From the NCBI GenBank assembly GCA_013042125.1, contig JABDQS010000208.1, forward strand, positions 1 to 19,462: DNA of 19,462 bases. The letters run 5' to 3'. Numbering within the stretch: the first letter of the stretch is position 1; the number at the start of each line of letters is the position of its first letter. The notes under the pieces were generated by a model. The model was not told where the DNA came from, searched no databases, and saw nothing but the letters and a program-made list of their open reading frames with translations. This document shows positions 1-17,620 of the stretch, piece by piece. A program made the position numbers and the translations under genes. Origin of the DNA: Eudoraea sp. GTDB lineage: Bacteria; Bacteroidota; Bacteroidia; Flavobacteriales; Flavobacteriaceae.

Positions 1-189
1 CTATGGGCCAGCAGGGTCTATCCTTCTCTACCCAATCAATCAGGATCAAGTAACAATACATTTATCTTGAATTGTGAAAAAGGGCTTGCAACAATAGCCA
101 TAACTCATTGGGCGACAGGTTTAATAAAATAACCCTGGTGCGGCAACGTATACTGAGATAGACTGATTATTTTTCTATATTAGTCTCAG

Positions 190-3135
190 ATGTTGGTAAA
201 ATTGACCAAAGTACTGCTCAGCCTTTTTTTGTGTTGCATATCTTCTCATATTTCTGCACAACAGTATAGCTATGTTCAATACAATGCTGACTCTGGAGCC
301 CCTTTTGACAAGGTATCCACCGTTCTTCAGGATCAGGACGGCTTTGTATGGATTGGTAGCCAAAACGGTTTGTATCGGTTTGATGGCAGCAATTTTGACG
401 TTTATAGCATGCATACCAAGAGTCAATTCATTCATCAGATCCATAAACGTGAAGATCAACTGCTGTTTGTAAATGATATGGGCATCTATCAAATTGATGA
501 TCTGCTTAAGCAGCCAAAAGTAACTACTTTACTGGAAGGCACTATAAATGAAACAAACGGACTACCCTTTTATCCCAATGATTTTGCCCTGGGCAAAGAT
601 CAAGACATTTGGCTCGCTCAATCTAATCACAGCGTTGGGAGGTTACAAGAAGGAGATTTCAAAACCTATCGATTTTCCAAAACTATTAAAGCACAAAAGC
701 TCGCGATACATAAAGATTCAGAAGGTGGTATTTGGGTGCTGAGTCCCCTGGATGGTTTATTCTACTATGATAAAACCACAAATACTTTTGAAAAAAAGCT
801 GAACATTAAAAATGGGAAAACCTTATTAATTCACAAGGATCAGCTTTTAGTGGGAAGCGATGCCCTACATGTCTATACAATTCGAGAAAATAAGCTCCAA
901 GCAGAGAAAACAATTGAGCTGGATGATGACCAGATCACAGCGATGTATACAGATCAAAATGATCGATTCATCATTGGGACCGGGAAAGGAAAGTTATTTA
1001 TTATATCCGATCTGAACGATCCTCCACAAACTGTGTATGGAGCCAATGAAGCTCACAGGGTGGAAGAATTAGATTTTGGATATATCCATGAAATTTATGT
1101 AACTAAAGACAGTGTAAGTAATAATGATAAGCTTTGGATTGGTTCGGAAACCGGACTATGGTTGCTCCAACAACAATTTTTCAAAACCGTGAAAAATTTA
1201 CCCCTCAATAATCCTATCAGTATTGCCATTGGAAATGAAGGAAAAGCCTGGGCGCCTATTAATTATTTATACGAGATCTCTCCAGATGAAGATGAATTCA
1301 CTGCAGAGCCCATCTTTGATAATTTACAGGCAAGTGCCGTTGCTCAAGACAAAGCCGGGTTCCTATGGGTGACCACCAGTACCCCGCAAGTTGAATTACT
1401 AAAATATGCCAATAACAAGATCGTTAAACGTTACGATGACTTCCATGACCGGGGAGAGGCCATTTTTAATCTTTATCCGGACAGTGAAGGGAACCTTTGG
1501 TTTTGCCAGGCGCCTTTAAATAAACCTATTATTGGTATTGCAAAGATCAATGCAACCGGGGAAATTAAGTATTACGATGAGACCAAAGGTTTTTCCAGCA
1601 GGGTTCTGGCGATCAAAGAAAGTGCCCTGGGAGAAATATATGCCGTTGGTATCGGAGAAAAAAGTTATTTGTATCGCTTTGATCCGGAGCAGGATCTATT
1701 TGTGAACCTCAGCCCTGCCCTTCCTTTTAAAGCCATCCTGAATTTTGAAGCCCATGACTTAACCATTGACGACCGTGGTATTGTATGGTTAGCAACTACC
1801 GATGGCTTGCTACGTTACGATGCCGAAAAAATTACACTGATCCAAAATGACATTTTAGGTCAGGAAGAAGTGAGAGGAGTAGCGCATTATTCCAATAATA
1901 ATGTGTGGATCTCCACGGCCACTAAAGGACTGGTTTTTCACCAACAAAATGCTTCCACCGTTTTAGGTGAAATAGAAGGATTACCTGCCGTTATAAGTGC
2001 CTACCGATGTATCACCACAGATGCTCAGGGACGCCTTTGGGCAGGTACAGCAGAAGGCTTGGTATACTCACGCATTTCAGCGGCCACTCTTCCCTATTCA
2101 AATTCACCGAGGATAAGAAAAATAATGATCGATCAAAGCGAGTTTACCAAAGGCTTTGAGGAGGTGTTAGAACTAAAAGAGAGTCAAGAGCTCAATTTGC
2201 ACTTAACGAATTTATCCTTTCCTGCCAAAAATGTCCAATACCAATTCAGACTACTTCCAAAAGAAGATAGACAGGTTATGTTGGAAGAACAACTCTGGCA
2301 ATCTAACGGAAATAACAACATCCTCAGCTTACCCCAGATCGAAACAGGTGATTACTACCTGGAATTACGTGCCAGACAACCAGGGGGCTATCAATGGAGT
2401 AAACCCCTGGAAATTCCGATAAACATATTTCTACCATGGTATGTGCAAACATGGTTTGTTTATAGTTCCATTGCTCTGCTACTTTTGCTCATATCGTATT
2501 ATTTTCGATTTTATGTAAAACAACGTTTCAGCAGACTACAACAAGTCCTGAAGTACTCCAATGAAAAGTTGGCCTTGAAGGAGGCCCAACTCAATCTAAA
2601 GATTCAAGAATACAGAGAGCAGCAGGAAGAATTGGATAATGCAAATTCTAATATCCATACCCTTGAACTTTTTATCAAAGAAATTCCCAAAAAGGCATCT
2701 TGGAACGATATAATTACTGCAATGGGCAAGGCCGTTACCCAATCGTTAGAAATAAACGCTTTTGAAATTGCATTTAAAGAAAAAAATGAGATCATACACA
2801 AGGGTTATTCCGACCAGGAACGAAGTGGCTATACCTTTAGAAGTAAGGCCTTCAACCCTAAAAACAGTTTAACATGCTGGGCTATGGCCAACAATCAGGA
2901 AGTCTTAATTAATGACTTCAAAAAGGAGCATATGATATACATTGGAGAAAAAGCTGCTTACCGTTTTAGTTCTTTATTATTTATTCCTTTTAAATTAGAG
3001 AATGATCAGCCGGTAGTATTATGTGCTTACAGTATTAAAAGAGATCAATTCGACCATAATGATCTGGTGATGTTCAGAATTTTAGCTCAGTTCATCTATT
3101 TTTCAATTCGCGAGGAAATAACCAAAAAAGTATGA
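190..3135 (+). CDS. Two-component-regulator-propeller (Reg_prop/Y_Y_Y) membrane sensor with C-terminal GAF-like domain
   Basis: Residues 1-23 are a signal peptide ending at ISA-Q. Residues about 25-630 form a periplasmic beta-propeller with Reg_prop-type strands (for example GFVWIGSQNGLYRFD at 51-65, GIVWLATTDGLLRYD at 530-544, GRLWAGTAEGLVY at 614-626). A Y_Y_Y-like immunoglobulin-fold domain follows at about 675-747, one membrane helix at about 750-772, a cytoplasmic coiled coil at about 780-825, and a GAF-like domain at about 835-978. Family members normally end in a histidine kinase, GGDEF, or AraC/LuxR DNA-binding domain; none is present, so the output must be non-canonical or pass to a partner. 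The stop overlaps the start of the ion-channel gene (ATGA), implying translational coupling. No clear Shine-Dalgarno sequence precedes the ATG, which is normal for Bacteroidota. The domain architecture is seen directly; the ligand and output are unknown. Confidence 0.9.
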   Translation: MLVKLTKVLLSLFLCCISSHISAQQYSYVQYNADSGAPFDKVSTVLQDQDGFVWIGSQNGLYRFDGSNFDVYSMHTKSQFIHQIHKREDQLLFVNDMGIYQIDDLLKQPKVTTLLEGTINETNGLPFYPNDFALGKDQDIWLAQSNHSVGRLQEGDFKTYRFSKTIKAQKLAIHKDSEGGIWVLSPLDGLFYYDKTTNTFEKKLNIKNGKTLLIHKDQLLVGSDALHVYTIRENKLQAEKTIELDDDQITAMYTDQNDRFIIGTGKGKLFIISDLNDPPQTVYGANEAHRVEELDFGYIHEIYVTKDSVSNNDKLWIGSETGLWLLQQQFFKTVKNLPLNNPISIAIGNEGKAWAPINYLYEISPDEDEFTAEPIFDNLQASAVAQDKAGFLWVTTSTPQVELLKYANNKIVKRYDDFHDRGEAIFNLYPDSEGNLWFCQAPLNKPIIGIAKINATGEIKYYDETKGFSSRVLAIKESALGEIYAVGIGEKSYLYRFDPEQDLFVNLSPALPFKAILNFEAHDLTIDDRGIVWLATTDGLLRYDAEKITLIQNDILGQEEVRGVAHYSNNNVWISTATKGLVFHQQNASTVLGEIEGLPAVISAYRCITTDAQGRLWAGTAEGLVYSRISAATLPYSNSPRIRKIMIDQSEFTKGFEEVLELKESQELNLHLTNLSFPAKNVQYQFRLLPKEDRQVMLEEQLWQSNGNNNILSLPQIETGDYYLELRARQPGGYQWSKPLEIPINIFLPWYVQTWFVYSSIALLLLLISYYFRFYVKQRFSRLQQVLKYSNEKLALKEAQLNLKIQEYREQQEELDNANSNIHTLELFIKEIPKKASWNDIITAMGKAVTQSLEINAFEIAFKEKNEIIHKGYSDQERSGYTFRSKAFNPKNSLTCWAMANNQEVLINDFKKEHMIYIGEKAAYRFSSLLFIPFKLENDQPVVLCAYSIKRDQFDHNDLVMFRILAQFIYFSIREEITKKV

Positions 3136-4214
3136 AGAATCAATGGTTTCACATAGTGATCTTGTTATTCTTTTGTGGGAATAGTTTGCATGCCTTTGCT
3201 GAAAGAGATACGCTTACCGTAGGGATCTACCACAATCCCCCTTTTGTGATCAAAACCCAGGATGATGGTTTTGAAGGATTGAGTATTGAATTATGGGAAA
3301 ACATAGCACAGTCTGCGGACCTCAACTATCGTTATGAAGTATATTCTGATTTCATAGGTATTTTGAAAAGACTTGAGTACCGGGATATTGATCTAACCAT
3401 TAACCCGATGGATGTGAATTATTCGCGGGTTGATAAATTTGATATGACGCAGCCCTATTTCATTTCCAGTATTGGTGTAGCTATACCATACTTGAACCGC
3501 TCACCATTAACCGTTTTTATCAGTAATATTTTCTCACTAGCTTTTTTTGAAATTATAGTGTTACTCATTCTTGTCATTTTTGTCTTTGGCTTTTTTCTAT
3601 GGCTCGTTGAACGCAGGCACAATAAATTTCAATTCCGTCCCGGTCTGTTGGGCCTTTTTGACGGGTTATGGTGGTCTGCAGTTACCATGACAACTGTGGG
3701 TTATGGTGACAAAGCTCCCAAGTCGAATGTAGGCAAAGCGATCGCCATTATCTGGATGTTTACTGCAGTGATCATTATTTCTAGTTTTACTGCCGGTATT
3801 GCGTCTACTCTAACAATTAGCGGATTACAAACCGACATACAAAACCCCGAGGATATTCGATTGGTGAAAAATATCTCAGTTGTGGGTGCTTCCACCGGAG
3901 AGTCCTATTTATTGCAAGAAGACATCCCTGTCCATAAGACGTATGCCTCACCTATTCTTGCCCTCAGGGCACTTGCTAAAAAAGAAAATGATGTGCTGCT
4001 GTACGACCGGACCATTTTACAGTATTACATTAATCGACTTTCATTAGATGAAAAGGTGAAGCTATTACCCTTCACTCTGAAAGAGCATTACCAAAGTTTT
4101 ATGTTACCAAAGAACCACCCTGATTTTGACCTGATCAATGTTGGTTTGATGAAGGAGATACAGAAGGAACGCTGGGGAGATTTGCAAAGAAAGTATGATG
4201 TTAAGGGGAAATAG
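3132..4214 (+). CDS. GluR0-like ligand-gated potassium channel (ionotropic glutamate receptor family)
   Basis: Residues 1-23 are a signal peptide. Residues 26-120 are the first lobe (S1) of a bacterial solute-binding protein family 3 domain. M1 follows at about 134-160, a pore loop at 176-195 with the K+ filter TVGYGD (188-193), and M2 at about 201-229. The second ligand lobe (S2) spans about 241-356. This S1-M1-P-M2-S2 order is that of Synechocystis GluR0. Arg99, in the context SRVDKFDMTQPYF, lines up with the agonist alpha-carboxylate-binding Arg of iGluRs. Asp292, in VLLYDRTILQYYI, lines up with the acidic residue that binds the agonist amino group. SFTAGIASTLT at 218-228, at the end of M2, resembles the eukaryotic SYTANLAAFLT gating motif. 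An amino-acid ligand and K+ selectivity are therefore inferred. The gene overlaps the propeller sensor by 4 bp. Confidence 0.93.
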   Translation: MKNQWFHIVILLFFCGNSLHAFAERDTLTVGIYHNPPFVIKTQDDGFEGLSIELWENIAQSADLNYRYEVYSDFIGILKRLEYRDIDLTINPMDVNYSRVDKFDMTQPYFISSIGVAIPYLNRSPLTVFISNIFSLAFFEIIVLLILVIFVFGFFLWLVERRHNKFQFRPGLLGLFDGLWWSAVTMTTVGYGDKAPKSNVGKAIAIIWMFTAVIIISSFTAGIASTLTISGLQTDIQNPEDIRLVKNISVVGASTGESYLLQEDIPVHKTYASPILALRALAKKENDVLLYDRTILQYYINRLSLDEKVKLLPFTLKEHYQSFMLPKNHPDFDLINVGLMKEIQKERWGDLQRKYDVKGK

Positions 4215-4254
4215 TATCAGAATAAAGCCGGTTTATTTATAAAATTTAACAGAA

Positions 4255-5517
4255 ATGAATTTCTTTAAAAACAGAGGATCAATCTACACACTTATCATTA
4301 TCCTGGGCTTCCTTGGGTGTAAGTCGGCCACTCAATGGCAAGGGCAGGCACCGATCAGGAAGGTCAGCACTAAAACGGTACCTGTTCAACGGCAGTACAA
4401 AGGTATTTTTGATCTTGGGGATGGCGTATATGTATCTAATGATTACAGCGGTGCCCGTATGAATGGTGTGGCGCGTACCAACGATACCCTAATTTCTGTT
4501 TTGATAACTTCTGAGAATTTGCCCATTAATCCAAGCCCCTGGTATGGCTTTAAAATATGGTCAGAAAGTGAAAAAGATCTGTATGTGAAACTCACCTATA
4601 ATGAAGATGCCTTTCACAGGTACTTCCCAAAACTCAGTGAAAATGGTTCTAATTGGGAAGCCTTGGATTCCCTGAAGTATACCTCGGTAAAGAAGTTCTT
4701 TAACGAACGAGAATTGGCAGAAAGCATTACAATGCAGCTGTCGGTGAACACAGACACACTGTGGATCTCTGCTCAGGAATTGATCACCTCCTCAGTTGTC
4801 GATAGCTGGTCGGATACATTGTTGCGTAATCCTTTTATTTCAAAATCTGCTATTGGGGAAAGTAACGAGGGGCGACCCATTAATTTGCTAAAAATTGGCG
4901 AAAGCGACGATCAAAGAATGATCATGGTGATTTCCAGACAGCACCCACCGGAGGTAACCGGGTTTTTAGCCATGCAGGCGTTCATTGAAACCCTTTGCGC
5001 AGATACAGACATTGCAAAACGTTTCAGGGCAAGATATAACACCTATGTGGTTCCTCTTGTAAATCCGGATGGCGTGGATAATGGCCATTGGCGACATAAT
5101 TATGGCGGAATTGATCTGAATAGGGATTGGGAGAGTTTTAATCAACCGGAGACTCGCTCTATCCGGGATTTTATGAAACAGAAAGTAGTACAAACGGGCG
5201 GTAAATTTTATTTTGGAGTCGATTTTCATTCAACCTGGGAAGATATTTTCTATACGATCACCCCTGAATTAAAAGGAAACATGCCCGGCCTGGTACCCAA
5301 GGTAATTGCCGGCCTGGAAGGTGAGTTCCCGGGTTACAAACCCAATATAAGGCCCAGTCCCGGAACGGGTAATAAAATTAATTCTACGGCTTTCTTCTTT
5401 TTCGAATTTGGGGCCGAGTCGTTTACATACGAGGTTGGTGACAACACACCCCGGGAATTTGTTCGTAAAAAAGGAGAAACTACAGCCATGAAATTAATGG
5501 AGGAACTATTGAAATAA
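4255..5517 (+). CDS. M14 family zinc carboxypeptidase lipoprotein (cytosolic-carboxypeptidase-like N domain)
   Basis: The start is a short signal sequence ending in a lipobox-like FLGC, giving Cys22 as the lipidation site. The -3 Phe is slightly unusual. Residues about 50-180 form a beta-rich N domain with INPSPWYGF (91-99), characteristic of the N domain of CCP/AGBL-type M14 enzymes. The catalytic domain (about 195-420) has zinc ligands His230 and Glu233 (HPPE), substrate-binding GGIDLNRDW (Asn289, Arg290), the third zinc ligand His325 (DFHS), and catalytic Glu393 (TYEVGD). All key residues are present, so it should be active as a surface or periplasmic exopeptidase removing C-terminal residues. 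It lies 40 bp after the channel gene, with only a weak A/T hairpin (AATAAA/TTTATT, 4221-4237) between, so cotranscription is possible. CCP relatives favour C-terminal glutamate; the specificity here cannot be read from sequence. Confidence 0.9.
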   Translation: MNFFKNRGSIYTLIIILGFLGCKSATQWQGQAPIRKVSTKTVPVQRQYKGIFDLGDGVYVSNDYSGARMNGVARTNDTLISVLITSENLPINPSPWYGFKIWSESEKDLYVKLTYNEDAFHRYFPKLSENGSNWEALDSLKYTSVKKFFNERELAESITMQLSVNTDTLWISAQELITSSVVDSWSDTLLRNPFISKSAIGESNEGRPINLLKIGESDDQRMIMVISRQHPPEVTGFLAMQAFIETLCADTDIAKRFRARYNTYVVPLVNPDGVDNGHWRHNYGGIDLNRDWESFNQPETRSIRDFMKQKVVQTGGKFYFGVDFHSTWEDIFYTITPELKGNMPGLVPKVIAGLEGEFPGYKPNIRPSPGTGNKINSTAFFFFEFGAESFTYEVGDNTPREFVRKKGETTAMKLMEELLK

Positions 5518-5536
5518 AAGATTAACTAAGTTAGAT

Positions 5537-5884
5537 ATGGAAATAAAAGACAACCACATAAGTTACATTGAATTTAAGGCCAAAGACCTTGAAAAAACAA
5601 AGAAATTCTATTCAGCCTGTTTTCATTGGTCCTTTACAGATTATGGAGAATGGTATGTTTCTTTTTCGGAAAGCGGACTTTATGGTGGCTTTGAAAGAAC
5701 TGAAAATGACATTGTAAATGGTGCACTGGTTGTTTTATATCACAAAGACCTGAAACTGATCAAAAGTAAGATCATAACTGCCGGCGGTAACATAACAAAA
5801 GACATATTCTCTTTTCCGGGTGGTCGCAGATTCCATTTTACTGATCCCTCAGGAAATGAATTAGCTGTTTGGTCTGACAACTAA
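5537..5884 (+). CDS. VOC family (glyoxalase/bleomycin-resistance fold) protein
   Basis: This 115-residue protein has the betaalpha-beta-beta-beta pattern of the vicinal oxygen chelate fold twice: an opening strand HISYIEFKAKDLEKTKKFY (7-25) and a closing half ending in FHFTDPSGNELAVW (about 99-112). The DPSGNELAVW ending is typical of glyoxalase-like proteins in Bacteroidota. It is cytosolic, with no signal peptide. It starts 19 bp after the M14 peptidase stop, so it may share that transcript, although no functional link is evident. The substrate cannot be assigned: members include lyases, dioxygenases and drug-binding proteins. Confidence 0.88.
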   Translation: MEIKDNHISYIEFKAKDLEKTKKFYSACFHWSFTDYGEWYVSFSESGLYGGFERTENDIVNGALVVLYHKDLKLIKSKIITAGGNITKDIFSFPGGRRFHFTDPSGNELAVWSDN

Positions 5885-5931
5885 CATGAACTAAGAACAC
5901 AAACCCAAGCAAAACAGCTGCATATAAAAAC

Positions 5932-6660
5932 ATGTCAAAGGAATATGACGAAATTACGGCATTCCATTACGCGGCATATCGTCCTTCCCTGCATTCAAGA
6001 ATCTTAAGCAACTTCTTTGCAGGAAATAGTAAATACGCTCTTGGCTTAGATGTAGGATGTGGTACAGGACATTCCTCAATTGCAATAGTAGCTTATTGTA
6101 AGAAGGTCATAGGGATTGATCCAAGTAAAGACATGTTACAAAGATCTCTTGCCCACCCTGGTGTGGAATACATACTGTACGATCGTAAAAATCTTGATTT
6201 TGCAAATGATCAATTCGACATAATTACTTTTGCGGGTTCCCTTTATTACGCAAAATCCCAACAGCTACTGAATGAAATAGTAAGGGTATGTAAGGATGAT
6301 GCGAGAATTCTGGTCTATGATTTTGAAATACCCCTGGACAAAATACTTCAGCTCTTGAAGGTTGGGAGCCATTCAAAACAACCATCTGAATATGATCATC
6401 AGGTAAATTTTTCCGGCCTTGATCAAAAAAGTATAACGCTGGAAAAGGAACTAAGCCAGTCATTTTCAATAAACATATCAATATCAAATCTCTCTCATTT
6501 ATTATTATCTTCTAAGGATAATTATACTGTTCTTAGAAAGAAATTTGGGGATGGTGATCTCTACATTAAAGTATCGCAAAAATTACATACGGTCCTAAAT
6601 TCTGAAAAGACAGCTGTTAAAGCCATGACGTATTCAACATTTTACAGTGTTATAAAATGA
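5932..6660 (+). CDS. Class I SAM-dependent methyltransferase (Methyltransf_11 type)
   Basis: Motif I, GLDVGCGTG, is at residues 38-46, followed by an acidic strand-2 residue in IGIDPSKDML (Asp63) that should bind the SAM ribose. Motif IV-like FDIITFAGSLYY is at about 95-106, and VRVCKDDARILVYDF (117-131) is the usual post-motif strand. At 242 residues it is full length for the UbiE/Methyltransf_11 group. The C-terminal half (about 150-242) is not diagnostic and sets the unknown acceptor. The stop overlaps the next gene's start (ATGA), so the two are translationally coupled. The product is probably cytosolic. A small-molecule acceptor is likely but inferred only from the family. Confidence 0.9.
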   Translation: MSKEYDEITAFHYAAYRPSLHSRILSNFFAGNSKYALGLDVGCGTGHSSIAIVAYCKKVIGIDPSKDMLQRSLAHPGVEYILYDRKNLDFANDQFDIITFAGSLYYAKSQQLLNEIVRVCKDDARILVYDFEIPLDKILQLLKVGSHSKQPSEYDHQVNFSGLDQKSITLEKELSQSFSINISISNLSHLLLSSKDNYTVLRKKFGDGDLYIKVSQKLHTVLNSEKTAVKAMTYSTFYSVIK

Positions 6661-7193
6661 GAACCCTGATAGAAACAGATAGATTATTAATACGAGAGAT
6701 CACTCCGGTTGACAAAGAGGATCTATTTGTCCTGCATTCTGATCCGGACGTACAAAAATATACGGGAGAAGCTGTGGTTGAGTCTGTGGAAGAAATAGAA
6801 AAAGCCATTGAGGAAAGAATTGAGCATTACAAGCAATTCGGTTTTGGAAGGTGGGCCATAGTTTTAAAGGATGGAATGCAATTTACAGGCTGGGCAGGCT
6901 TGCTGTACCTGCCAGAATTTGATGAAATTGATCTTGGTTATAGATTCCTGCCACAATATTGGGGGAAAGGGATCGCCACAGAGGCATCTCATGCAATTCT
7001 TAACTACGGTTTTGAAACACTCAAATTAGATAAGATCGTGGCCATTGCAATGAAAGAAAATATAGCATCGATAAAGGTGATGGAAAAAGTAGGAATGGAA
7101 TTCTATAAAGTTGCTCCTTATGAAGCAGGGGAGAAAGATGCAGTTTGGTATAAGTGCGACCAAAACATAATTTCAAGAAATAAATCGCAATAA
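6657..7193 (+). CDS. GNAT family N-acetyltransferase (RimJ/RimL-like)
   Basis: The 178-residue protein opens with TDRLLIREITPVDKEDLF (7-24), the standard N-terminal strand and helix of RimJ/RimL-type GNAT enzymes. It has the acetyl-CoA pyrophosphate-binding stretch QYWGKGIATEA (100-110) and the later NIASIKVMEKVGMEF (135-149), where the Asn and the aromatic residues are conserved in the family. It transfers an acetyl group from acetyl-CoA to an amine. Whether the target is a protein N-terminus, an amino acid or a drug cannot be told. It overlaps the upstream methyltransferase by 4 bp, which suggests joint production, but no known pathway pairs the two. Confidence 0.92.
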   Translation: MRTLIETDRLLIREITPVDKEDLFVLHSDPDVQKYTGEAVVESVEEIEKAIEERIEHYKQFGFGRWAIVLKDGMQFTGWAGLLYLPEFDEIDLGYRFLPQYWGKGIATEASHAILNYGFETLKLDKIVAIAMKENIASIKVMEKVGMEFYKVAPYEAGEKDAVWYKCDQNIISRNKSQ

Positions 7194-7232
7194 TCACGTA
7201 CCTTAATCAGGGATTTAGATAAAACTAAAATT

Positions 7233-8201
7233 ATGAAAACATCAATATCGATTTTAGGCAATCTTTTGCTAACACTAGTTTTATCTAACTGTTTCGCACA
7301 ACAAGCAATAATTACAAAGATTACTGATGACGACACAGATTATACCGGACCTATGATAGATATGCATAGCCATGCTTTTAATGAGAACAGTTCATTCAGT
7401 CTTATGTTAGGAAAGGAAATGGATCTTGCTATGACCGGTAAGATCTATAAAGCATCTGCTTCTATGGAAAAACTGAGGGAAGAAACACTAGCTAAATTCG
7501 AAGAATACAATATTGTGAAAGCAATGGTGTCACAAGGAGAACTATGGTACGAATTCGCTCCGGAGAAGGTGATCATTGGAAATAATCATTTTCTGTCCAT
7601 AGAGGAACTAAGGCTTAAACACAAAGAAGGAAAGTTAGATGTATTGGGGGAAGTAGCTCCTAACTATCAGGGCATCTTGCCTACCGACGACTCCTTGAAG
7701 GATTACTACGATCTTGCTGAAGAATTAGGTGTCCCCATTGCCTATCATTTATTTCCCGGTGGACCTCCGGGAGGCGCCTATATCATGTATCCTGAAATAA
7801 GGGCATTTCAAGGTAAGCCACTGCAATTAGAAGAAATTCTGTTCTCACACCCGCGAATGAAAATCTATATAATGCATGCAGGTTGGCCATATTTGGAAGA
7901 CATGAAGGCACTTATGTATGCACATCCGCAGGTGTACGTAGATCTTGGAGTGATAGATTGGGTATTGCCAGTTAAGGAATTTCATCACTTCCTTAAAGGC
8001 CTGGTAGATGCTGGTTTTGGTAAAAGGATCATGTTCGGTACAGACTCAATGATATGGGTAGATACCATTGATGATGCCATTGCCGCAATTAATTCCGCAG
8101 ATTTTCTTTCCATGGAACAAAAAGAAGACATATTTTACAACAATGCTGCAAGGTTCTTGAACTTAACAGATGAAGAAATTAAGAAACATAAAGGTCAATA
8201 A
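7233..8201 (+). CDS. Secreted amidohydrolase family protein (metal-dependent hydrolase, TIM barrel)
   Basis: Residues 1-22 are a signal peptide (cleavage after CFA, before QQ), so the enzyme acts in the periplasm or outside. The barrel starts at MIDMHSHAF, with the metal-binding HxH at His45 and His47. Further candidate ligands are His172 (AYHLFPGG), His215 (IYIMHAGWP) and Asp271 (MFGTDSMIW), which is the order expected for the amidohydrolase_2 (ACMSD-like) group. At 322 residues it is full length. The reaction could be decarboxylation or hydrolysis of an amide, lactone or similar bond; nothing here fixes the substrate. It sits directly before gamma-glutamyltransferase on the same strand with a 71 bp gap. 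Export of an ACMSD-like barrel is somewhat unusual, since better known members are cytosolic. Confidence 0.88.
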   Translation: MKTSISILGNLLLTLVLSNCFAQQAIITKITDDDTDYTGPMIDMHSHAFNENSSFSLMLGKEMDLAMTGKIYKASASMEKLREETLAKFEEYNIVKAMVSQGELWYEFAPEKVIIGNNHFLSIEELRLKHKEGKLDVLGEVAPNYQGILPTDDSLKDYYDLAEELGVPIAYHLFPGGPPGGAYIMYPEIRAFQGKPLQLEEILFSHPRMKIYIMHAGWPYLEDMKALMYAHPQVYVDLGVIDWVLPVKEFHHFLKGLVDAGFGKRIMFGTDSMIWVDTIDDAIAAINSADFLSMEQKEDIFYNNAARFLNLTDEEIKKHKGQ

Positions 8202-8272
8202 ACTGAAGCGCAATAGGTTAATTAATATCCTATTTACATCCAAATCCTATTAATCTGTCTTTTTAAAAACCC

Positions 8273-9958
8273 ATGAGCAAATTATTATACCCAAGATCAC
8301 TTTTCTTTATATCCTTTTTTTTTATTCTTATTTCCGGTTTTGCCCAAACCTATGCAAAAAATGGCATGGTGGTTTCAGATAATGAAGTTGCTTCCCAGGT
8401 TGGGGTAGCTGTTCTTAAAAAAGGAGGCAATGCCATTGATGCGGCCATTGCCACTGCTTTTGCCCTGGCAGTAACACATCCCCAGGCTGGCAATATAGGC
8501 GGAGGTGGTTTTATAGTCTATATGAATGCTTCCGGCGCTACCACCACGATCGATTTCAGAGAAAAAGCTCCTTTAGCTGCTACTTCTGATATGTTCCTGG
8601 ACGAAAACGGAAAGCTTATTATGGGTAGTAATCACAAGGGATTAAAGTCGGTGGGAGTGCCGGGTACGGTAGCCGGGCTTTATATGGCACATGAAAAATA
8701 CGGAGTGCTGCCATGGAAAGAGTTGGTGCAGCCATCTGTAGATCTGGCAAAAAATGGAATGATCCTTACTTTCACCCTCGCCACACATGCCAGGCGCTCG
8801 CAAGAAGGTGCATCAGCTTTTTTAAAAGAATACTTTAAAAACCCAAATGGAAAATTGGTAGATTTTGGGGAGGTCTGGAAACAGCCGGCATTGGCCAAAA
8901 CATTAGAACAGATCCGGGATAAGGGAAAGGATGGGTTTTATAAAGGAAAAGTGGCCAGTGAGATCCATAAATTCATGAAAGCGAATGGTGGGATCATAAC
9001 CCGAAAAGACCTGAAAGAATATACTGCCGTTGAACGAGCTCCTATGAAAGGCACCTATAAAGAATTTGAGATCTATTCCATGCCTCCGCCAAGTTCCGGT
9101 GGAGTGGCACTCATTGAAATGATGAACATCATGGAGTTGGCCAACTTAGATTCTATACAATTTAATTCTACGGCCTATGTACATCTGGTAGCGGAGACCA
9201 TGCGAAGAGCATTTGCAGATAGAGCAGAACATATGGGTGATCCTGATTTTAATCCCGAAATGCCCATTGAAAAGTTGACCTCTAAAGAATTTGCGCAAAA
9301 AAGATATAGCAATATCGATCTTGAAAGGGCCTCTGTAAGCGATTCAACCAAATTCGGACAACTCTATGATGGTGCTAACACCACGCACCTATCCGTAATA
9401 GATAAAAATGGCAGTGCCGTTTCTCTGACCTATACCCTGGAGTATTCCTATGGTTCTCAATTAGGCTCTCCCAAACTGGGCTTTATCTTTAACAATGAAA
9501 TGGGCGATTTCAATCCGCAGCCGGGTTACACGGATCGTGATTGGCTGATCGGTACCGATCCCAACATTATAAAACCCGGTAAACGGATGCTCTCCAGTAT
9601 GACACCTACCATTGTTGCTAGAGAAGGTAAACCCTATCTGGTAATTGGTAGTCCCGGAGGGCGAACAATAATAAACACCGTTTTTCAAACAGTTCTTAAT
9701 GTATTGGAATACGAGATGCCAATACACAAGGCTATTGAAGCAATGAAAATTCACCATCAGTGGCTCCCGGATAGGTTGATCTTTGAAACCCACTTAATGT
9801 CCCCGGACACACAAAAGGCGTTAGAGGAGATGGGTCATACGCTCTACGGCCGCAGCAATCTCGGCAGATTAATGGGTATACTAAATTCAACTGAACAAGG
9901 TGTTTTCATTGGGGCCTCAGATTCATCCAGTCCGGATGGGGCCGCCGTGGGGTACTAG
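8273..9958 (+). CDS. ggt: Gamma-glutamyltransferase (gamma-glutamyl transpeptidase / glutathione hydrolase)
   Basis: The protein is exported: residues 1-24 are a signal peptide ending GFA-Q. It is made as a precursor that cleaves itself before Thr370 in GANTTHLSVID, giving large and small subunits with Thr370 as the nucleophile. Arg96 in DFREKAP matches the E. coli Arg that holds the gamma-glutamyl carboxylate, and GSPGGR (459-464) forms the oxyanion hole. The segment between QPG and KRMLSSMTPT matches the E. coli lid-loop region in length, unlike lidless Bacillus enzymes. The C terminus GASDSSSPDGAAVGY is intact; the family's DPR is here DSS. It removes gamma-glutamyl groups from glutathione and related peptides in the periplasm, releasing glutamate or transferring it to amino acids. 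The full 561 residues give high confidence. Confidence 0.97.
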   Translation: MSKLLYPRSLFFISFFFILISGFAQTYAKNGMVVSDNEVASQVGVAVLKKGGNAIDAAIATAFALAVTHPQAGNIGGGGFIVYMNASGATTTIDFREKAPLAATSDMFLDENGKLIMGSNHKGLKSVGVPGTVAGLYMAHEKYGVLPWKELVQPSVDLAKNGMILTFTLATHARRSQEGASAFLKEYFKNPNGKLVDFGEVWKQPALAKTLEQIRDKGKDGFYKGKVASEIHKFMKANGGIITRKDLKEYTAVERAPMKGTYKEFEIYSMPPPSSGGVALIEMMNIMELANLDSIQFNSTAYVHLVAETMRRAFADRAEHMGDPDFNPEMPIEKLTSKEFAQKRYSNIDLERASVSDSTKFGQLYDGANTTHLSVIDKNGSAVSLTYTLEYSYGSQLGSPKLGFIFNNEMGDFNPQPGYTDRDWLIGTDPNIIKPGKRMLSSMTPTIVAREGKPYLVIGSPGGRTIINTVFQTVLNVLEYEMPIHKAIEAMKIHHQWLPDRLIFETHLMSPDTQKALEEMGHTLYGRSNLGRLMGILNSTEQGVFIGASDSSSPDGAAVGY

Positions 9959-10038
9959 AGAAATCCCTATTTGGGACATCCCTTTATTGTAAGTTGCTTG
10001 CAGGAATTTTTTGTAATTTCATTTAAAACCATGTCATC

Positions 10039-10389
10039 TTGGAGAGAAGATGTTTAGAGTGTAATGAGGTCTTTAAGGGACGGATAGACAAAAAGTTCTG
10101 TTCGGATTACTGCCGTAATGCCTATAACAATAAGCTGAACAAAGACAGCAAGAACCTGCTGCGCAATATAAATAATCGCCTAAGAAAGAATTACCGTATT
10201 CTGGATAGTTTCACTTTAAAAGAAGGCAAAACAAGGACAACCAAGACACGACTGTTAGATAAGGGGTTCGACTTTGAATATCTAACCAATCTCTACACTA
10301 CTAAAAAAGGAACGACCTATTATTTTGTGTACGACCTGGGCTATCTGCCTCTGGATAATGACTACTATATGATCGTAAAAAGAGAATAG
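10039..10389 (+). CDS. Small Zn-ribbon-like cysteine protein, unknown function (TTG start)
   Basis: Four cysteines (Cys5, Cys8, Cys21, Cys25) in the pattern CLEC...FCSDYC should bind one zinc ion, followed by RNAYNNKLN. The pattern resembles the N-terminal zinc ribbon of small conserved Bacteroidota proteins of about 110-120 residues. The remainder (about 30-116) is basic then aromatic-rich (TTYYFVYDLGYLPLDNDYYMIV), with no recognised enzyme motif. No ATG exists in frame before the zinc motif: the preceding in-frame stop is at 10024, and TTG at 10039 is the only standard start that keeps both CxxC cysteines. An ATG at 10031 lies in another frame and runs only eight codons. The protein is cytosolic. 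A nucleic-acid-binding role is plausible but inferred. Confidence 0.78.
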   Translation: MERRCLECNEVFKGRIDKKFCSDYCRNAYNNKLNKDSKNLLRNINNRLRKNYRILDSFTLKEGKTRTTKTRLLDKGFDFEYLTNLYTTKKGTTYYFVYDLGYLPLDNDYYMIVKRE

Positions 10390-10418
10390 CCCCGGAAAAT
10401 ATCCAGGGCTATTTTATA
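10385..10418. terminator. Bidirectional rho-independent terminator between convergent genes
   Basis: The arms AATAGCCC (10385-10392) and GGGCTATT (10406-10413) pair perfectly. One C-A mismatch and an inner GG/CC pair extend the stem, which is followed by TTTATAAG. The plus-strand gene's stop codon lies inside the left arm. Read on the minus strand, the stem is followed by CTCTTTTT, so it can also end transcription of the CBS gene. Confidence 0.75.
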
Positions 10419-10435
10419 AGAATTGATTCTGTTTT

Positions 10436-10906
10436 CTATTTATAATTGTGGCTGGTAAGCTTTAAGGCTGCAATCACAATATCCTTCCGACTTATTTGAC
10501 CAACCAACAGGCCTTCTTTCATGACAGGTAAACGACGGCGATGGTTCTTGTGAAACACGCCGGCAGCATCAAAAATGCTCATATCGTGTGGAATGGTCTC
10601 AACTTCTTTTGTCATAAATTTTTCCACACTTTTATCAAGGATAGGCTGATTAAAATATCTGCTTTCAGAGATCTCTTTCATGCAATCGGCCTCAGAGATG
10701 ATCCCAACTAAAAATCCGTTGTCATCCAATACAGGACCTCCGGAAATACGATTTTTTGCAAAAGATTCCATCACCTCCAAGATGGACTGATCCGGACTAA
10801 AAGTGATCAGTTTTCTGGACATATAGTCCTCCACCAAAATAGGGGCATCGTACTCTTTTTTGGACACTTCCTTGGCTCTACGCCCCATAAAACTTTTGAT
10901 CCCCAT
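10436..10906 (-). CDS. CBS domain-containing protein (tandem CBS pair)
   Basis: Two CBS motifs fill nearly all of the 156 residues: about 26-78 (VEDYMSRKLITFSPDQSILEV through LVGIISEADC) and about 97-148 (KFMTKEVETIPHDMSIFDAA through LVGQISRKDIV). A tandem pair folds as a Bateman module that binds adenosine nucleotides such as AMP, ATP or SAM and normally switches a partner protein. The first 20 residues are basic and probably unstructured. No catalytic domain is attached, so it must act through a partner or as a nucleotide-binding switch; the partner is not identifiable here. It converges on the Zn-ribbon gene and diverges from the M28 peptidase across a 121 bp gap. Confidence 0.93.
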   Translation of the reverse strand: MGIKSFMGRRAKEVSKKEYDAPILVEDYMSRKLITFSPDQSILEVMESFAKNRISGGPVLDDNGFLVGIISEADCMKEISESRYFNQPILDKSVEKFMTKEVETIPHDMSIFDAAGVFHKNHRRRLPVMKEGLLVGQISRKDIVIAALKLTSHNYK

Positions 10907-11027
10907 ACTTGTTCGTTTTAAAATGGTTAGTATTAAATATACATATTTTGCGTGAATCTCCTAAAATTAGTCGTCAAACTGTATAGACCGCTTAGAATTA
11001 TTTACTTTTAGGGGAGATTTATTTAGC

Positions 11028-13310
11028 ATGAAAAACATACGGCTATGGGCCACGTTACCCCTTTTAATCCTGGCAATTTTTTGGAGTTATAGATCCCTGA
11101 TGCCTTCAGTTGGTAATACAAGTGTGGAAGAAGAATACGGCTTTTCCACAGATAAGGCACTTACCCATGTGGAAGCAATGTCTAAACAGCCACATGCCGT
11201 TGGGTTCCCCGCCCATGCAACCGTTAGAGCATATATTGTTACTGAACTTGAGAACATGGGCTTGGAAGTATCCCTTCAGGAAGGGTATACAGCGGGTGAT
11301 TGGGCCAACTATAGCAAAGCCGTCAATATTGTATCGAGAATAGAAGGATCCGGGGAAGGCAAAGCTTTATTGCTCCTCTCCCACTATGATAGCAGTCCGC
11401 ACTCTTCCCTGGGTGCCAGCGATGCAGGCAGCGGCGTGGCCACTATCCTGGAAGGCATTCGTGCCTATCTTGCGAAGAATGTGACACCCAAAAATGATAT
11501 CATTATTGTGATCACAGATGCCGAAGAGTTGGGCCTTAACGGTGCAGATCTTTTCGCGAACCGGCACCCCTGGACAAAGGATGTAGGATTGGTCCTTAAT
11601 TTTGAGGCGAGGGGTAGTGGAGGACCTGGTTATATGTTCATGGAGACCAACCGGGGTAATGAGCAGCTCATAAAGGAATTTGTGACTGCCAATCCGCACT
11701 TTCCGGTAACAAATTCACTGGCATATAGCATTTATAAATTACTGCCAAACGATACAGATCTAACTGTCTTCAGGGAAGACCAGGACATCGAGGGATTTAA
11801 TTTCGCCTTTATAGACGATCATTTTGACTACCATTCGGTTCGTGATTCACACACAAGATTGGACCGCAATTCTCTCACGCATCAGGGTAGTTATCTAATG
11901 CCCTTATTGACTCATTTTAGTGAAGCAGATCTGGGTAGTTTGAAAAGCCTTAATGATTACATTTATTTCAACATCCCCCTATTTAAGATGGTAACCTATC
12001 CATTTGACTGGATATGGCCCATGTGGATACTTTCTCTTGGAATCTTTATTATTCTTTTGGTTTTGGGATTCAGAAATAGCATTTTGAACATAAAAGAGGT
12101 GTTTCAGGGTTTTGTTCCTATGACAGCCTCACTTCTGATCAATGGAATAGTGGGCTATTTTGCCTGGACAATGATAATAGCACTCTATCCGGGCTATAAA
12201 GACATATTACAGGGATTTACGTACAATGGCCACACTTATATCCTGGCATTGGCACTCTTCTCTTTGGCTATCTGTTTCTGGGTTTATTCGAGGTTTAAAA
12301 AAATTAGCATTCCCAGCCTTCTTGTGGCTCCTGCACTACTTTGGCTGGTGATCTGTGGAGTGGTAGCGCAATACCTACCGGGTGCCAGCTTTTTTATTAT
12401 ACCGGTATACGCACTACTCGTTTGTCTGGCCATCTTGATTCATCAAAAAGAACCGGATCCGTATTTACTCTTGTTTTTGTTGCTCCCGGCCATATTCATA
12501 TATAGCCCTTTCATAGCTATGTTCCCAATAGCGCTTGGTCTTAAAATGTTGGTGACCACTGCCCTATTCACCACCCTTACGTTTTGGCTTCTTTTACCCT
12601 TGTTAGCAAGCTATCCAAAGAAAAAGTTATTAGGTTCACTTTTATTTACAGGGTTCATAATTACGCTGGCTGTGGCTCATTTTCAATCTGGCTTTACAGA
12701 AGAAAAGGCAAAACCAAGCAGTTTAGTTTACATTCTGGACGCGGACACTAAAAAAGCACAGTGGGCCACCTATGAAAAACAGCTATCTGATTGGACCTTA
12801 GCGGTACTAGGATCGGAGAATTCCTTACCCGAAAAGACCAACAATACAAACATTTACAGCAAATACAATTCGGGATACACCCATGTGTCGGCAGCCCCTG
12901 TAAAGGACATAACCGAACCTGTGGTTACCATTGAAAAAGACACCACCCTGGAGGGAAATCGAATGTTGGAGGTTGGTATTTTTCCTCAACGTGGAGTAAA
13001 TCGCCTTGAAGTTTTTACAAATTCCACTCAGATAAAAAAGGCAAGCATAAATGGAATAGAACTCTCGGAATATTATTTAAAGCAGCGTAGAGGTACCCGA
13101 CTTTTCACGCACTACATCAGTGATAATGACTCCACCATTTTGGAGTTGAGCATCCCTGCCGGAGCAGAGTTGGAATTAACACTATACGAAGCATCCAATG
13201 ATCTTTTGGCACATCCATTGTTTTCTGTCCCGCAAAGGCCAAAAGATCTTATCCCAATGCCCTTTGTGTTGAACGACGCAGTCATCATAAAAAAAACAAT
13301 ACGCCATTGA
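11028..13310 (+). CDS. Membrane-bound M28 family metallopeptidase (Fxna/ERMP1-like architecture)
   Basis: Residues about 5-23 are an N-terminal membrane helix. The M28 domain (about 40-300) has all expected dizinc ligands: His119 (SHYDS), Asp132 (SDAGSG), the catalytic Glu166 and ligand Glu167 (DAEELGLNGADLF), Glu193 (NFEARGSGG) and His269 (DYHSVRD). Residues about 328-551 hold around eight hydrophobic helices, and residues about 555-760 form a soluble beta-rich tail. Catalytic domain plus polytopic membrane part plus C-terminal tail recalls eukaryotic ERMP1/Fxna and related bacterial M28 proteins. It likely acts as an aminopeptidase with the catalytic domain on the periplasmic side. The stop overlaps the next gene's TTG start. 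No ligand is missing; the specificity is unknown. Confidence 0.93.
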   Translation: MKNIRLWATLPLLILAIFWSYRSLMPSVGNTSVEEEYGFSTDKALTHVEAMSKQPHAVGFPAHATVRAYIVTELENMGLEVSLQEGYTAGDWANYSKAVNIVSRIEGSGEGKALLLLSHYDSSPHSSLGASDAGSGVATILEGIRAYLAKNVTPKNDIIIVITDAEELGLNGADLFANRHPWTKDVGLVLNFEARGSGGPGYMFMETNRGNEQLIKEFVTANPHFPVTNSLAYSIYKLLPNDTDLTVFREDQDIEGFNFAFIDDHFDYHSVRDSHTRLDRNSLTHQGSYLMPLLTHFSEADLGSLKSLNDYIYFNIPLFKMVTYPFDWIWPMWILSLGIFIILLVLGFRNSILNIKEVFQGFVPMTASLLINGIVGYFAWTMIIALYPGYKDILQGFTYNGHTYILALALFSLAICFWVYSRFKKISIPSLLVAPALLWLVICGVVAQYLPGASFFIIPVYALLVCLAILIHQKEPDPYLLLFLLLPAIFIYSPFIAMFPIALGLKMLVTTALFTTLTFWLLLPLLASYPKKKLLGSLLFTGFIITLAVAHFQSGFTEEKAKPSSLVYILDADTKKAQWATYEKQLSDWTLAVLGSENSLPEKTNNTNIYSKYNSGYTHVSAAPVKDITEPVVTIEKDTTLEGNRMLEVGIFPQRGVNRLEVFTNSTQIKKASINGIELSEYYLKQRRGTRLFTHYISDNDSTILELSIPAGAELELTLYEASNDLLAHPLFSVPQRPKDLIPMPFVLNDAVIIKKTIRH

Positions 13311-14119
13311 AACCACGTATTGGAATATTAGGTTGTGGCTGGCTGGGATTTCCCCTGGCCAAACGCTTTATTTCCATGGACCACCGCGTAAGTGGCACTA
13401 CCACTACCAGGGCCAATTTAAATATTCTCAGCAATGAAGGAATATTAGCATATTATGTGGAACTGTTCAACAAAGGCGTGAAAGGTTCTCTTATAGATTT
13501 TCTGAAAGATTTAGATATCCTGATCATTAATGTGCCTCCTATGCGTAAATCGAAGGAGCAAAATTATTTGAGTAAAATGACTCAATTATATGAGGCAGTT
13601 AAGATCATGCATCTTAAGAAGATCATTTTTGTCAGCAGCACTACGGTGTATGGGGAGGTAGAAGGAGAGGTCACGGAAAAATCGGTTCCCAAACCAGGCA
13701 GCGATTCGGCCAGGAACCTATTGGCTGCAGAGAAATTATTTACGTCTAACAAAGATCTGGATACCACAGTGGTTCGCTTCGGGGGTTTACTGGGTCCTGA
13801 CCGCCACCCGGTAACCTATTTATCCGGACAACATGAACTATCTAATGGAGACGACGTCATTAACCTGATCCACTTAGAGGACTGTATTTTAATTTTAACT
13901 AGTATAATCACCAATGAATGGTGGGGAAAGCTCATCAATGGAGTTTACCCGGATCATCCAACGAAAAGAGCTTATTATACCAAAGAGGCAACCAAAAGGG
14001 GCCTTCCCGCTCCGGATTATACGAAAGGTTACGCAGGTAAAACCGGGAAGGTCATCAAAACCAAAACGCTGGATGCCCTCAAATTTAAATTTAGTACCCC
14101 ATTAGATACTTCTTCCTGA
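13307..14119 (+). CDS. NAD(P)-binding SDR/epimerase-like protein (YeeZ-like), TTG start
   Basis: The protein opens directly with a Rossmann nucleotide-binding strand and loop, GILGCGWLG (6-14, GxGxxG), as in E. coli YeeZ-type proteins. SSTTVYG at 110-116 matches the SSxxVYG segment of extended SDR enzymes. The expected catalytic YxxxK is not recognisable; the corresponding stretch reads SARNLLAAEKLF (134-145), so this may be an atypical SDR with another activity. The start is TTG at 13307 within TTGA, overlapping the M28 gene stop by 4 bp. No ATG occurs before the first Rossmann strand, so the rare start looks genuine. The product is cytosolic and the substrate unknown. Confidence 0.88.
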   Translation: MKPRIGILGCGWLGFPLAKRFISMDHRVSGTTTTRANLNILSNEGILAYYVELFNKGVKGSLIDFLKDLDILIINVPPMRKSKEQNYLSKMTQLYEAVKIMHLKKIIFVSSTTVYGEVEGEVTEKSVPKPGSDSARNLLAAEKLFTSNKDLDTTVVRFGGLLGPDRHPVTYLSGQHELSNGDDVINLIHLEDCILILTSIITNEWWGKLINGVYPDHPTKRAYYTKEATKRGLPAPDYTKGYAGKTGKVIKTKTLDALKFKFSTPLDTSS

Positions 14120-14201
14120 AAAGCCGAGTATTCTTCCTAATTCCTTTCCATAATTGCGTCATTTTAAAGTTTTTGATAAGAAAAGACCAAAAAAAAAGTA
14201 G

Positions 14202-14209
14202 TAGTTTTG
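14202..14209 (+). promoter_or_regulatory. Candidate Bacteroidota -7 promoter element for the TPR gene
   Basis: TAGTTTTG matches TAnnTTTG exactly and lies 13 bp before the first ATG of the TPR protein. A TTTG at 14172-14175 is the nearest -33 candidate, but 26 bp lie between it and the -7 element, a little longer than usual. A run of nine A residues lies between the two. Confidence 0.45.
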
Positions 14210-14222
14210 CCGCACTAATTTT

Positions 14223-14927
14223 ATGATCATGAAAATAAGAATCGCGATCCTTTTTATTGCTGTTAGTTTGTGTAGTTATGGCCAAACCACTTCTGAATTA
14301 AAGACTCATTACGAAGCATTTTATAAGGAGATGAAAGCTCAGGGTGATGTTAGTGGGGTGATCAATGCCCTTACACATTTAATTGTTCTTCAACCTTCAC
14401 AACAACGAAGAGATACACTGGCCTTTGTATATGCAAATAACAATCAGCATATGCAGGCATTAAATACAATCGGGATAGAAAAGAATGCCTCCGATTCTGA
14501 TCTGGCAGTACAGGTAAAGGCAATAAGTCTGAAAGCTCTGAACCAGCCTAAACGTGCTTTGGAACAATTTGAGGTTTTATACCAACGATCTCCCAATCCC
14601 TATCTGGCCTATGAATTGGCAGATCTGAAGATCCAAACCGGAGATAATGCCGGAGCATTTACCAACATAGAATTTGCTCTTGGTTCGGTAAAAGAGGGAA
14701 TGACCTACGCGTTCTACGAAAGACAACAACCCTACGAAGTATCCCTAAAGGCGGCCCTGCTACATTTAAAAGGTTTAGTACAGTACAACACGGACCGTAA
14801 CAATATTGATGCAGCTCTTGCCAGTTTTGATGAAGCCCTCACCCTCGATCCCAATTTTAATTTGGCCAGCCTCAGCAAACAGGCGTTGGAGTCAAGGAAA
14901 AATAATCCGGAAGAAGAAAAGAATTAA
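14223..14927 (+). CDS. Secreted tetratricopeptide-repeat protein
   Basis: A signal peptide spans residues 1-20 (MIMKIRIAIL... ending CSYG-QTT), so the protein is periplasmic or surface-associated. The body is helical, with TPR-like units around residues 88-122, 127-157 and 184-216; the last includes the hallmark IDAALASFDEALTLDPNF. TPRs mediate protein-protein contacts and no enzyme domain is present. The second in-frame ATG at 14229 (MKIRIAIL) is equally plausible as the start and leaves a more comfortable leader after the candidate promoter at 14202. The tail is charged and low complexity (SRKNNPEEEKN). It sits alone between a promoter and a strong terminator, so it is probably monocistronic. 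Its partner and role are unknown. Confidence 0.85.
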   Translation: MIMKIRIAILFIAVSLCSYGQTTSELKTHYEAFYKEMKAQGDVSGVINALTHLIVLQPSQQRRDTLAFVYANNNQHMQALNTIGIEKNASDSDLAVQVKAISLKALNQPKRALEQFEVLYQRSPNPYLAYELADLKIQTGDNAGAFTNIEFALGSVKEGMTYAFYERQQPYEVSLKAALLHLKGLVQYNTDRNNIDAALASFDEALTLDPNFNLASLSKQALESRKNNPEEEKN

Positions 14928-14954
14928 AAAGGGAGGCAAATGCCTCCCCTTTTT
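14926..14954. terminator. Strong bidirectional rho-independent terminator
   Basis: GGGAGGC (14931-14937) and GCCTCCC (14942-14948) form a perfect GC-rich stem with an AAAT loop. Five A residues precede it and CTTTTT follows, so T-tracts exist in both directions. It lies between the convergent TPR and trehalase genes and should serve both. Confidence 0.92.
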
Positions 14955-14986
14955 GATTATTGATCTAGTTTCAATTCTAAGTTAAG

Positions 14987-16576: not shown

Positions 16577-16635
16577 AGGTCAGTTATATAAATAAATCTT
16601 TAAGTCCCGTGATCCGGTCATTAGTTAGTGAACTT

Positions 16636-17133: not shown

Positions 17134-17620
17134 CGGATAGTAATTGAAGATCGAGGGTATTGTTTACGATCACATTAAATTGATTGCGTAGGGCATTGTA
17201 GGCTTCCATCATTTCAACAGCCGGTTCTGTAGCATCGATCCGATATTCAACCGCTGCCCTTGTTTTTAAGATAAACGTTTTCATAACCTTTTGTCTGCTC
17301 CTAACCTGGGGTAGGTCAAATTCAGGAGGGTATTTTGAATCTTCCAATGCTTTTTGTCTTTCAACCAGATCGTCCAGAACAAAAGCAAGGTCTTCCTCAT
17401 TCTCAACTTTGTACAAAGCATCAAAACCAATATTCAAGGCATTGAATTCCATCCAATCCCTGGAAATTTCGGAGGCCTTGGCATTTAAGATAACCCTTTG
17501 GGGTATTGCCGTTACCTGCAAGAACTGTAGCTCTTCCTTAATTTCCTCTTTTCCTTCTGCAGACTCCTGACAAGCAACTGAGAGAAGTAAAAGGAAGAAT
17601 GCAGACATTATTTTTCTCAT
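17126..17620 (-). CDS. Uncharacterised lipoprotein, helical
   Basis: From ATG at 17620 the protein begins MRKIMSAFFLLLLSVAC, a clean lipoprotein signal with Cys17 as the lipidation site. An upstream in-frame TTG at 17635 would add five residues and spoil the compact signal, so the ATG is preferred. After a short acidic linker (ESAEGKEEIKEE), the rest is predicted largely helical, with long charged stretches such as LAFVLDDLVERQKALEDSKY and a C-terminal NALRNQFNVIVNNTLDLQLL. I recognise no domain. It is first in the minus-strand operon with the SnoaL-like protein (8 bp overlap) and trehalase, and diverges closely from the threonine dehydrogenase gene. Function unknown. Confidence 0.8.
   Translation of the reverse strand: MRKIMSAFFLLLLSVACQESAEGKEEIKEELQFLQVTAIPQRVILNAKASEISRDWMEFNALNIGFDALYKVENEEDLAFVLDDLVERQKALEDSKYPPEFDLPQVRSRQKVMKTFILKTRAAVEYRIDATEPAVEMMEAYNALRNQFNVIVNNTLDLQLLSDE

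Follow-up and report, generated by a model that had tools for sequence, protein, structure and literature searches.

What does a bacterial surface sensor do when it carries no output domain of its own and its gene runs directly into that of an ion channel? The question is raised by a 19,462-nucleotide stretch of DNA from Eudoraea sp. (Flavobacteriaceae; contig JABDQS010000208.1, positions 1 to 19,462, here called the window), in which the gene for a propeller-type sensor ending in a GAF-like domain overlaps the gene for a K+ channel related to the glutamate receptors of the brain. We find the sensor directly upstream of the channel, on the same strand, in all 33 coupled loci that we collected, and beside every close relative of the channel among 388 Flavobacteriaceae genomes. 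Such adjacency is far beyond chance, and the pairing is reciprocal and old. The two proteins, found in some marine bacteria, very probably act as one unit. One reading, which we hold at about even strength, is that they form a conserved two-gene membrane signalling module: an inverted GluR0-type K+ channel with the sensor as its dedicated partner, an auxiliary or gating subunit.

Two overlapping genes encode a sensor and a channel

The features of the pair, in window coordinates, are these:

190-3135 (+): sensor gene, 981 amino acids; signal peptide, propeller ectodomain like that of hybrid two-component systems (HTCS), transmembrane helix, coiled coil and GAF domain
190-258 (+): signal peptide (residues 1-23), from hydropathy, with Gln24 directly after it
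259-2439 (+): predicted periplasmic ectodomain (residues 24-750), with the fold of the BT4663 and BT3049 hybrid-sensor periplasmic domains
2449-2511 (+): single transmembrane helix (about residues 754-774), from the AlphaFold model and hydropathy
2515-2682 (+): coiled-coil linker (about residues 776-831), from the AlphaFold model, mostly of low confidence there
2698-3114 (+): GAF-like domain (about residues 837-975), predicted to be cytoplasmic, from GAF_2 matches in the family and the model
3132-3135 (+): ATGA overlap of sensor stop and channel start, read from the sequence
3132-4214 (+): channel gene, 360 amino acids; signal peptide, S1, M1, pore, M2 and S2 of a predicted GluR0-type K+ channel, from Pfam, model and fold matches
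3210-3491 (+): ligand-binding lobe S1 (about residues 27-120), with Asp94 at 3411-3413 and Arg99 at 3426-3428
3537-3620 (+): M1 helix (residues 136-163), from model and hydropathy
3690-3710 (+): K+ selectivity filter TTVGYGD (residues 187-193), read from the sequence
3726-3821 (+): M2 helix (residues 199-230), from model and hydropathy
3846-4193 (+): ligand-binding lobe S2 (about residues 239-354), with Asp292 at 4005-4007

An earlier note on this DNA, which had already pointed out the ATGA overlap, described the sensor as a Reg_prop/Y_Y_Y protein. Reg_prop is indeed matched in Pfam (E 5e-23); Y_Y_Y is matched by only 3 of the 47 sensors in our family alignment (A2) and not by the window protein, and we keep that label because the fold resembles BT4663, whose periplasmic domain is the best structural match of the sensor model. 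In that model (mean confidence score, pLDDT, 84.6) beta structure extends up to residue 747, a helix at 754-831 forms the transmembrane segment and coiled coil, with block pLDDT values of only 48-56 over residues 791-820, and the C-terminal domain is alpha/beta. The GAF_2 match of the window protein lies under the curated cut-off (E 5e-5; 24 bits against 28.6), and GAF_2 is found at E<=0.001 in 46 of these 47 sensors; by sequence the GAF domain has no match among solved structures at E<=1. Gln24 is invariant in all 47. At E<=0.001 none of them matches a family of kinases, GGDEF domains or DNA-binding domains, nor does any carry HisKA, HATPase or a receiver, in agreement with the note's account of an end made of coiled coil and GAF with no output. 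Because these outputs are absent, we do not class the sensor as an HTCS; judged by its domains, it is taken to be a GAF-domain protein.

The channel has the layout of a type-3 binding protein divided into S1 and S2 by a two-transmembrane pore, with Pfam SBP_bac_3 at residues 28-355 split by Ion_trans_2/Lig_chan at 143-245 (Ion_trans_2 at 145-227), and model and fold matches agree. TTVGYGD is found in 26 of the 27 coupled channels examined, the remaining one (L092) being cut by a contig end before the filter. On sequence grounds the window channel is thus assigned to the GluR0-type prokaryotic glutamate-receptor channels. Model and hydropathy give it little predicted cytoplasmic part.

The sensor stands beside every close relative of the channel seen in context

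The 33 coupled loci (the window, 26 others and 6 from further locus sets) are de-duplicated and come from 30 genomes. In all of them a candidate channel start lies between -14 and +10 nucleotides from the sensor stop; a 4-nucleotide overlap is possible in 23, being the nearest option in 20, with a start at -1 nearer in the other 3. A scan of window positions 1-6000 gave 14 promoter-like sites against 15.7 in shuffled sequence and 9 terminator-like sites against 5.1 (standard deviation 1.9), with no terminator-like site on the + strand near the junction. When open reading frames of at least 80 amino acids flanking the pair were clustered, only sensor and channel were common to all 33 loci; the next commonest family occurs in 6 and the following ones in 4. 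The adjacency is therefore not a by-product of conserved gene order.

Among the 388 Flavobacteriaceae genomes, 27 contain some channel at E<=1e-60, and 16 contain the close type (at least 46% identity), in 19 places. The sensor was found in the same 16 genomes and the same 19 places, adjacent each time, plus one contig-end fragment in G1032; the 11 genomes with only distant channels (35-41% identity) gave no sensor match. A second, overlapping sample of 199 Flavobacteriaceae genomes gave channel matches in 28 genomes and sensor matches in 8, at 10 places; these correspond one to one with the 10 channel places of 46% identity or more, the sensor lying immediately upstream. Searches with the sensor scored 2 first-look candidates per genome in the 388 genomes and in the class sample below, and 4 in the 199; a fuller look at 11 genomes that have the pair, in which all or nearly all candidates were scored, gave at least 13 strong matches to the sensor, and every one of these belongs to a pair already known. 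Further afield, a 395-genome phylum sample had the channel in 31 genomes, the sole close one being the window's own, and a 395-genome class sample queried with the sensor gave, besides the window, 4 proteins that match over the ectodomain alone. A scan of named genomes found 19 channel loci, with the sensor directly upstream in all.

The earlier note suggested that sensor and channel may form one signalling unit, and that finding them apart in most close relatives would speak against it. We looked for such separated genes and found none in the 19 places or the 33 loci, so that this part of its interpretation is strongly supported. These counts cover loci with genomic context; metagenomic proteins, including the deepest sensors (P0303-P0309), came without it. 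No fusion of sensor and channel appeared among the sensor matches listed (120 of 143 and 120 of 324), within length limits that would admit one. The channel of one coupled locus (G1032:C193:2206-3281) is broken across two frames, by sequencing error or as a pseudogene.

No sensor lies beside 45 distant channels in the stretch fetched, some of these loci being near a contig end. At 18 of them a gene closely precedes the channel on the same strand, and none of the 10 scanned encodes a propeller protein: they comprise RecQ, an IPP transferase, an S24/helix-turn-helix repressor, a beta-lactamase-family protein, a proton-antiporter-type subunit, a secreted nuclease/phosphatase, DcuC, a histidine phosphatase, a pyridoxal-phosphate enzyme and a HEAT_2 protein. 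At L133 a 909-amino-acid gene (6063-8792, - strand) with only a weak HEAT_2 match overlaps a very distant channel (29%) by 29 bases, and it is possibly another channel-linked partner.

Sensor and channel descend together

In a channel tree of 67 rows, 27 coupled channels fall on one side of a branch (100/100) and 40 uncoupled ones on the other. The pair holds across deep divergence, down to about 28-30% identity in the sensor and 46% in the channel. Pairwise distances of sensors and channels correlate at r=0.99 over 24 pairs and at 0.91 over the 18 near pairs (0 of 2000 permutations as high in either case), and at 0.97 over the six distant pairs (28 of 2000). We count this as co-inheritance and not as contact, because shared descent alone can yield it. 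Three genomes (G103, G126 and G1030) hold two diverged pairs each, with every channel beside its own sensor. The pair also occurs in Saprospiraceae/Lewinella metagenome bins (L038, L046-L049); L046-L048 are nested among Flavobacteriaceae rows in both trees, and these copies overall fall within or just beside that family. If the bins are correct, this suggests that the pair was transferred as a unit.

A kinase-type ectodomain with an apparently new end

Where did a sensor of this kind come from? A search with the deepest sensor (L089) gave 324 matches, of which 120 were listed. E-values jump from 1.7e-140 to 5e-61, where histidine kinases begin, and past these come GGDEF, SpoIIE, cyclase and sigma-54-activator proteins; the lower-ranked matches P0339 and P0351 likewise list no output domain. 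For the 69 entries P0241-P0309, the lowest at 32% identity, precomputed Pfam lists give no known output domain, and no kinase is found among the 120 of 143 proteins listed for the C-terminal third of the window sensor (residues 640-981). Together with the family alignment, these searches leave the earlier note's other possible refutation, a close sensor homologue that still bears a kinase, without an example. The idea that the window copy lost its kinase by recent mutation was rejected, as close homologues share the same architecture.

The kinases appear further out. The four proteins of the class sample that match the ectodomain only, at 25-29%, carry HisKA/HATPase, three of them also with a receiver and the fourth running off its contig. 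A tree of 38 ectodomains places 15 GAF-type sensors in one group (SH-aLRT, an approximate likelihood-ratio support, of 94) beside the histidine kinases; it is a quick search over the first ~760-900 residues, midpoint-rooted, with SH-aLRT support only and long branches flagged. It appears that an ectodomain of the kinase type exchanged its output for a GAF end and was linked with a channel. The simplest history would be one replacement of kinase by GAF end together with capture of, or by, the K+ channel, a direction that hangs on the midpoint root.

The full kinases among remote ectodomain relatives might also be read in a more ordinary way, with the window protein as a decayed hybrid two-component sensor that lies beside a channel by chance. 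Decay would sit poorly with full-length family members of about 920-1000 amino acids that share a GAF-like end and have no kinase match, and chance with the adjacency in 33 of 33 loci. We regard this explanation as already contradicted and give it hardly any weight.

The amino-acid pocket differs in channels that have a sensor

One might expect a channel controlled in part by a partner protein to keep its ligand pocket less strictly. Residues were counted in an alignment (A1) of 38 uncoupled and 33 coupled channels; the latter (23 from loci and 10 metagenomic, 75-82% identical to the window's) are a different set from the 33 coupled loci. Arg99 is present in all coupled and all uncoupled channels, and Asp292 in all 38 uncoupled and in 31 of 33 coupled ones, with Asn in L050 and His in L086. 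These two align with the positions that in ionotropic glutamate receptors (iGluRs) bind the alpha-carboxylate and alpha-amino groups. Position 94 aligns with Thr480 of GluA2 and behaves differently: Thr or Ser occupies it in all 38 uncoupled channels and in only 1 of 33 coupled ones. The window has Asp there, Asp or Glu is found in 26 window-like coupled channels, and the 7 deeper ones have T, A, V, I, H, H and L; a Thr-to-Asp switch for the whole coupled clade was rejected, as the acidic residues are confined to the window-like sub-clade. Pro294 is likewise present in 36 of 38 uncoupled channels and in none of the coupled.

The pocket has therefore changed in channels that have a sensor, and looks relaxed in the deeper members. 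A change in just these channels is what one would expect if control had passed partly to the sensor, although a different small ligand might also account for it. The change at position 94 puts glutamate as the ligand in doubt; the assignment to the GluR0 type stands, because we do not take Thr or Ser at this position as family-defining.

Neighbours of the pair

The most frequent extra neighbour is a GH16 laminarinase-like lipoprotein, found in 6 of the 33 coupled loci and in none of 45 uncoupled ones:

L041:7194-8051 (+): GH16 lipoprotein beside the pair, likewise in L043, L088, L089, L206 and L207

Its nearest solved relatives are endo-1,3-beta-glucanases (4bq1, E 1e-12). We searched 13 genomes with the pair and found a close copy in 8 (75-100% identity, where 100% is the query itself, from G106). 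In 6 of the 8 the copy adjoins a pair, following the channel in G106 and G062 and preceding the sensor in G103, G126, G1030 and G1043; G958 and G147 have it at another place. The two arrangements occur in sub-types with sensors only ~30% identical and point to two or more independent associations. In this count two genera appear twice, the query was picked for being adjacent, and no GH16 match is found in the window's own bin, which is 74% complete; for these reasons a beta-1,3-glucan signal is a lead and not a finding.

An M14 zinc carboxypeptidase gene follows the channel of the window by about 40 bases (4255-5517, + strand), and one whose product is 47% identical follows the distant pair of L084 (2490-3782, - strand). 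It was considered as a third member of the module and rejected, lying beside the pair in only 2 of 33 loci. Further along the window are a gamma-glutamyltranspeptidase (8273-9958, + strand) and an M28-peptidase protein (11028-13310, + strand), which could release amino acids outside the cell membrane and are not among the recurrent neighbours of the pair, and a trehalase-family protein (PF01204; 14987-16576, - strand).

How the pair might work

We see about as much reason to accept as to doubt that the sensor directly modulates the channel. It is proposed as a gating or auxiliary subunit because it has no other recognised output, because the channel adjoins it wherever context is seen, and because the usual pocket is retained in channels that lack a sensor. 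A periplasmic location is predicted for both large domains, since both proteins have signal peptides and the termini of GluR0 are reported to lie outside, opposite to KcsA (PMC13099474). The kinase output of a hybrid-kinase-type sensor would have been replaced by coiled coil and GAF, and the propeller ectodomain and the clamshell of the channel could meet in the periplasm, with the sensor taking over control of the channel, at least in part, from a free amino acid. We speculate that the propeller reads a glycan or cell-surface signal, possibly a fragment of beta-1,3-glucan, and that the GAF domain either contributes a small-molecule input from the cytoplasm or serves to read out the state. The sensor signal and any clamshell and GAF ligands would then converge on K+ conductance, with K+ flux or membrane potential as the output instead of phosphotransfer. 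The earlier note's interpretation is supported in part, strongly as to the unit; contact, direction of control and ligands we infer.

A bolder form of this proposal, to which we give tentative credence short of an even chance, is that a polysaccharide sensor of the kinase type was rewired once from phosphotransfer to ion flux, so that its ectodomain gates an inner-membrane iGluR-type K+ channel and takes over from, or combines with, an amino-acid ligand and a cytoplasmic GAF ligand. If so, detection of food or neighbours would be converted directly into membrane potential, a new mode of bacterial signal transduction.

Several observations weigh against a dedicated gating subunit. Contact between the proteins rests on inference, and common ancestry by itself would make their distances correlate. 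The pair is also uncommon and unevenly spread (16 of 388 Flavobacteriaceae genomes), and even in the window's own genus a channel match is present in only 4 of 9 genomes, so the pair is not essential; many related channels do without such a partner. L038 is placed differently in the sensor and channel trees, although the main groups agree. Only N132, L156 and S322 are conserved in at least 95% of coupled and in under 20% of uncoupled channels, and there is therefore no clear interface patch.

It is also possible that adjacency reflects co-regulation only, the two proteins serving one response, for example to algal glucan or to osmotic change, and being translated together without touching. Adjacency alone cannot prove contact, and further genes can evidently enter the neighbourhood, as GH16 has done at 6 of 33 loci. 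Yet the reciprocal pairing has lasted over deep divergence while its surroundings changed; in our judgement mere co-regulation would rarely remain so strict, and it would leave the sensor without any recognised output. We think this unlikely, while giving it some weight. Another possibility reverses the direction, with the channel as input and the sensor as reporter: K+ flux, membrane potential or ligand state would alter the sensor, whose coiled coil and GAF domain would address an unlinked cytoplasmic partner such as a kinase or cyclase in trans. Coiled-coil and GAF ends are typical of dimeric signalling proteins, this end is conserved in nearly the whole family, and the cytoplasmic part predicted for the channel is small. 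But no third gene occurs in more than 6 of the 33 loci, so the partner would have to be unlinked in most cases, and we doubt this reading too. Direct modulation by the sensor is the reading that we carry forward, and it suggests a kind of sensor that works through an ion channel.

Relation to known systems

Each part of the pair is of a known kind, and the strict combination, a reg-prop sensor with a channel as its only conserved neighbour, is new to us; in line with the earlier note, we found no described pairing of the two in the open-licence papers searched. GluR0 of Synechocystis and the other prokaryotic iGluR-type K+ channels resemble the window channel in the S1/S2 split, the two-transmembrane pore and the TVGYG filter, and differ in that the channel here has a strictly adjacent sensor partner and that 32 of 33 coupled channels no longer have the pocket Thr. 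We found no sensor partner for GluR0 in the available portions of PMC2950845 and PMC13099474, and the former, a survey of 100 prokaryotic glutamate-receptor-like sequences, makes no mention there of neighbor, operon, genomic context, Bacteroidetes, Flavobacter or propeller. If the bolder form of our proposal proves true, the pair would be a natural receptor-coupled ion channel and the sensor the first dedicated partner of a prokaryotic glutamate receptor. The Bacteroidota hybrid sensors BT4663, BT3049 and BT4673 share ectodomain sequence and fold with the window sensor, which unlike them lacks HisKA, HATPase, receiver and DNA-binding domains, ends in GAF and is paired with a channel.

A parallel in working idea comes from the brain. 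In AMPA receptors with TARP or cornichon proteins, a dedicated membrane partner determines how the iGluR pore is gated, and structures of these complexes are on record. It is the working idea alone that is shared: the partner in the window would be an unrelated, single-transmembrane propeller/GAF protein, with a proposed contact to its channel.

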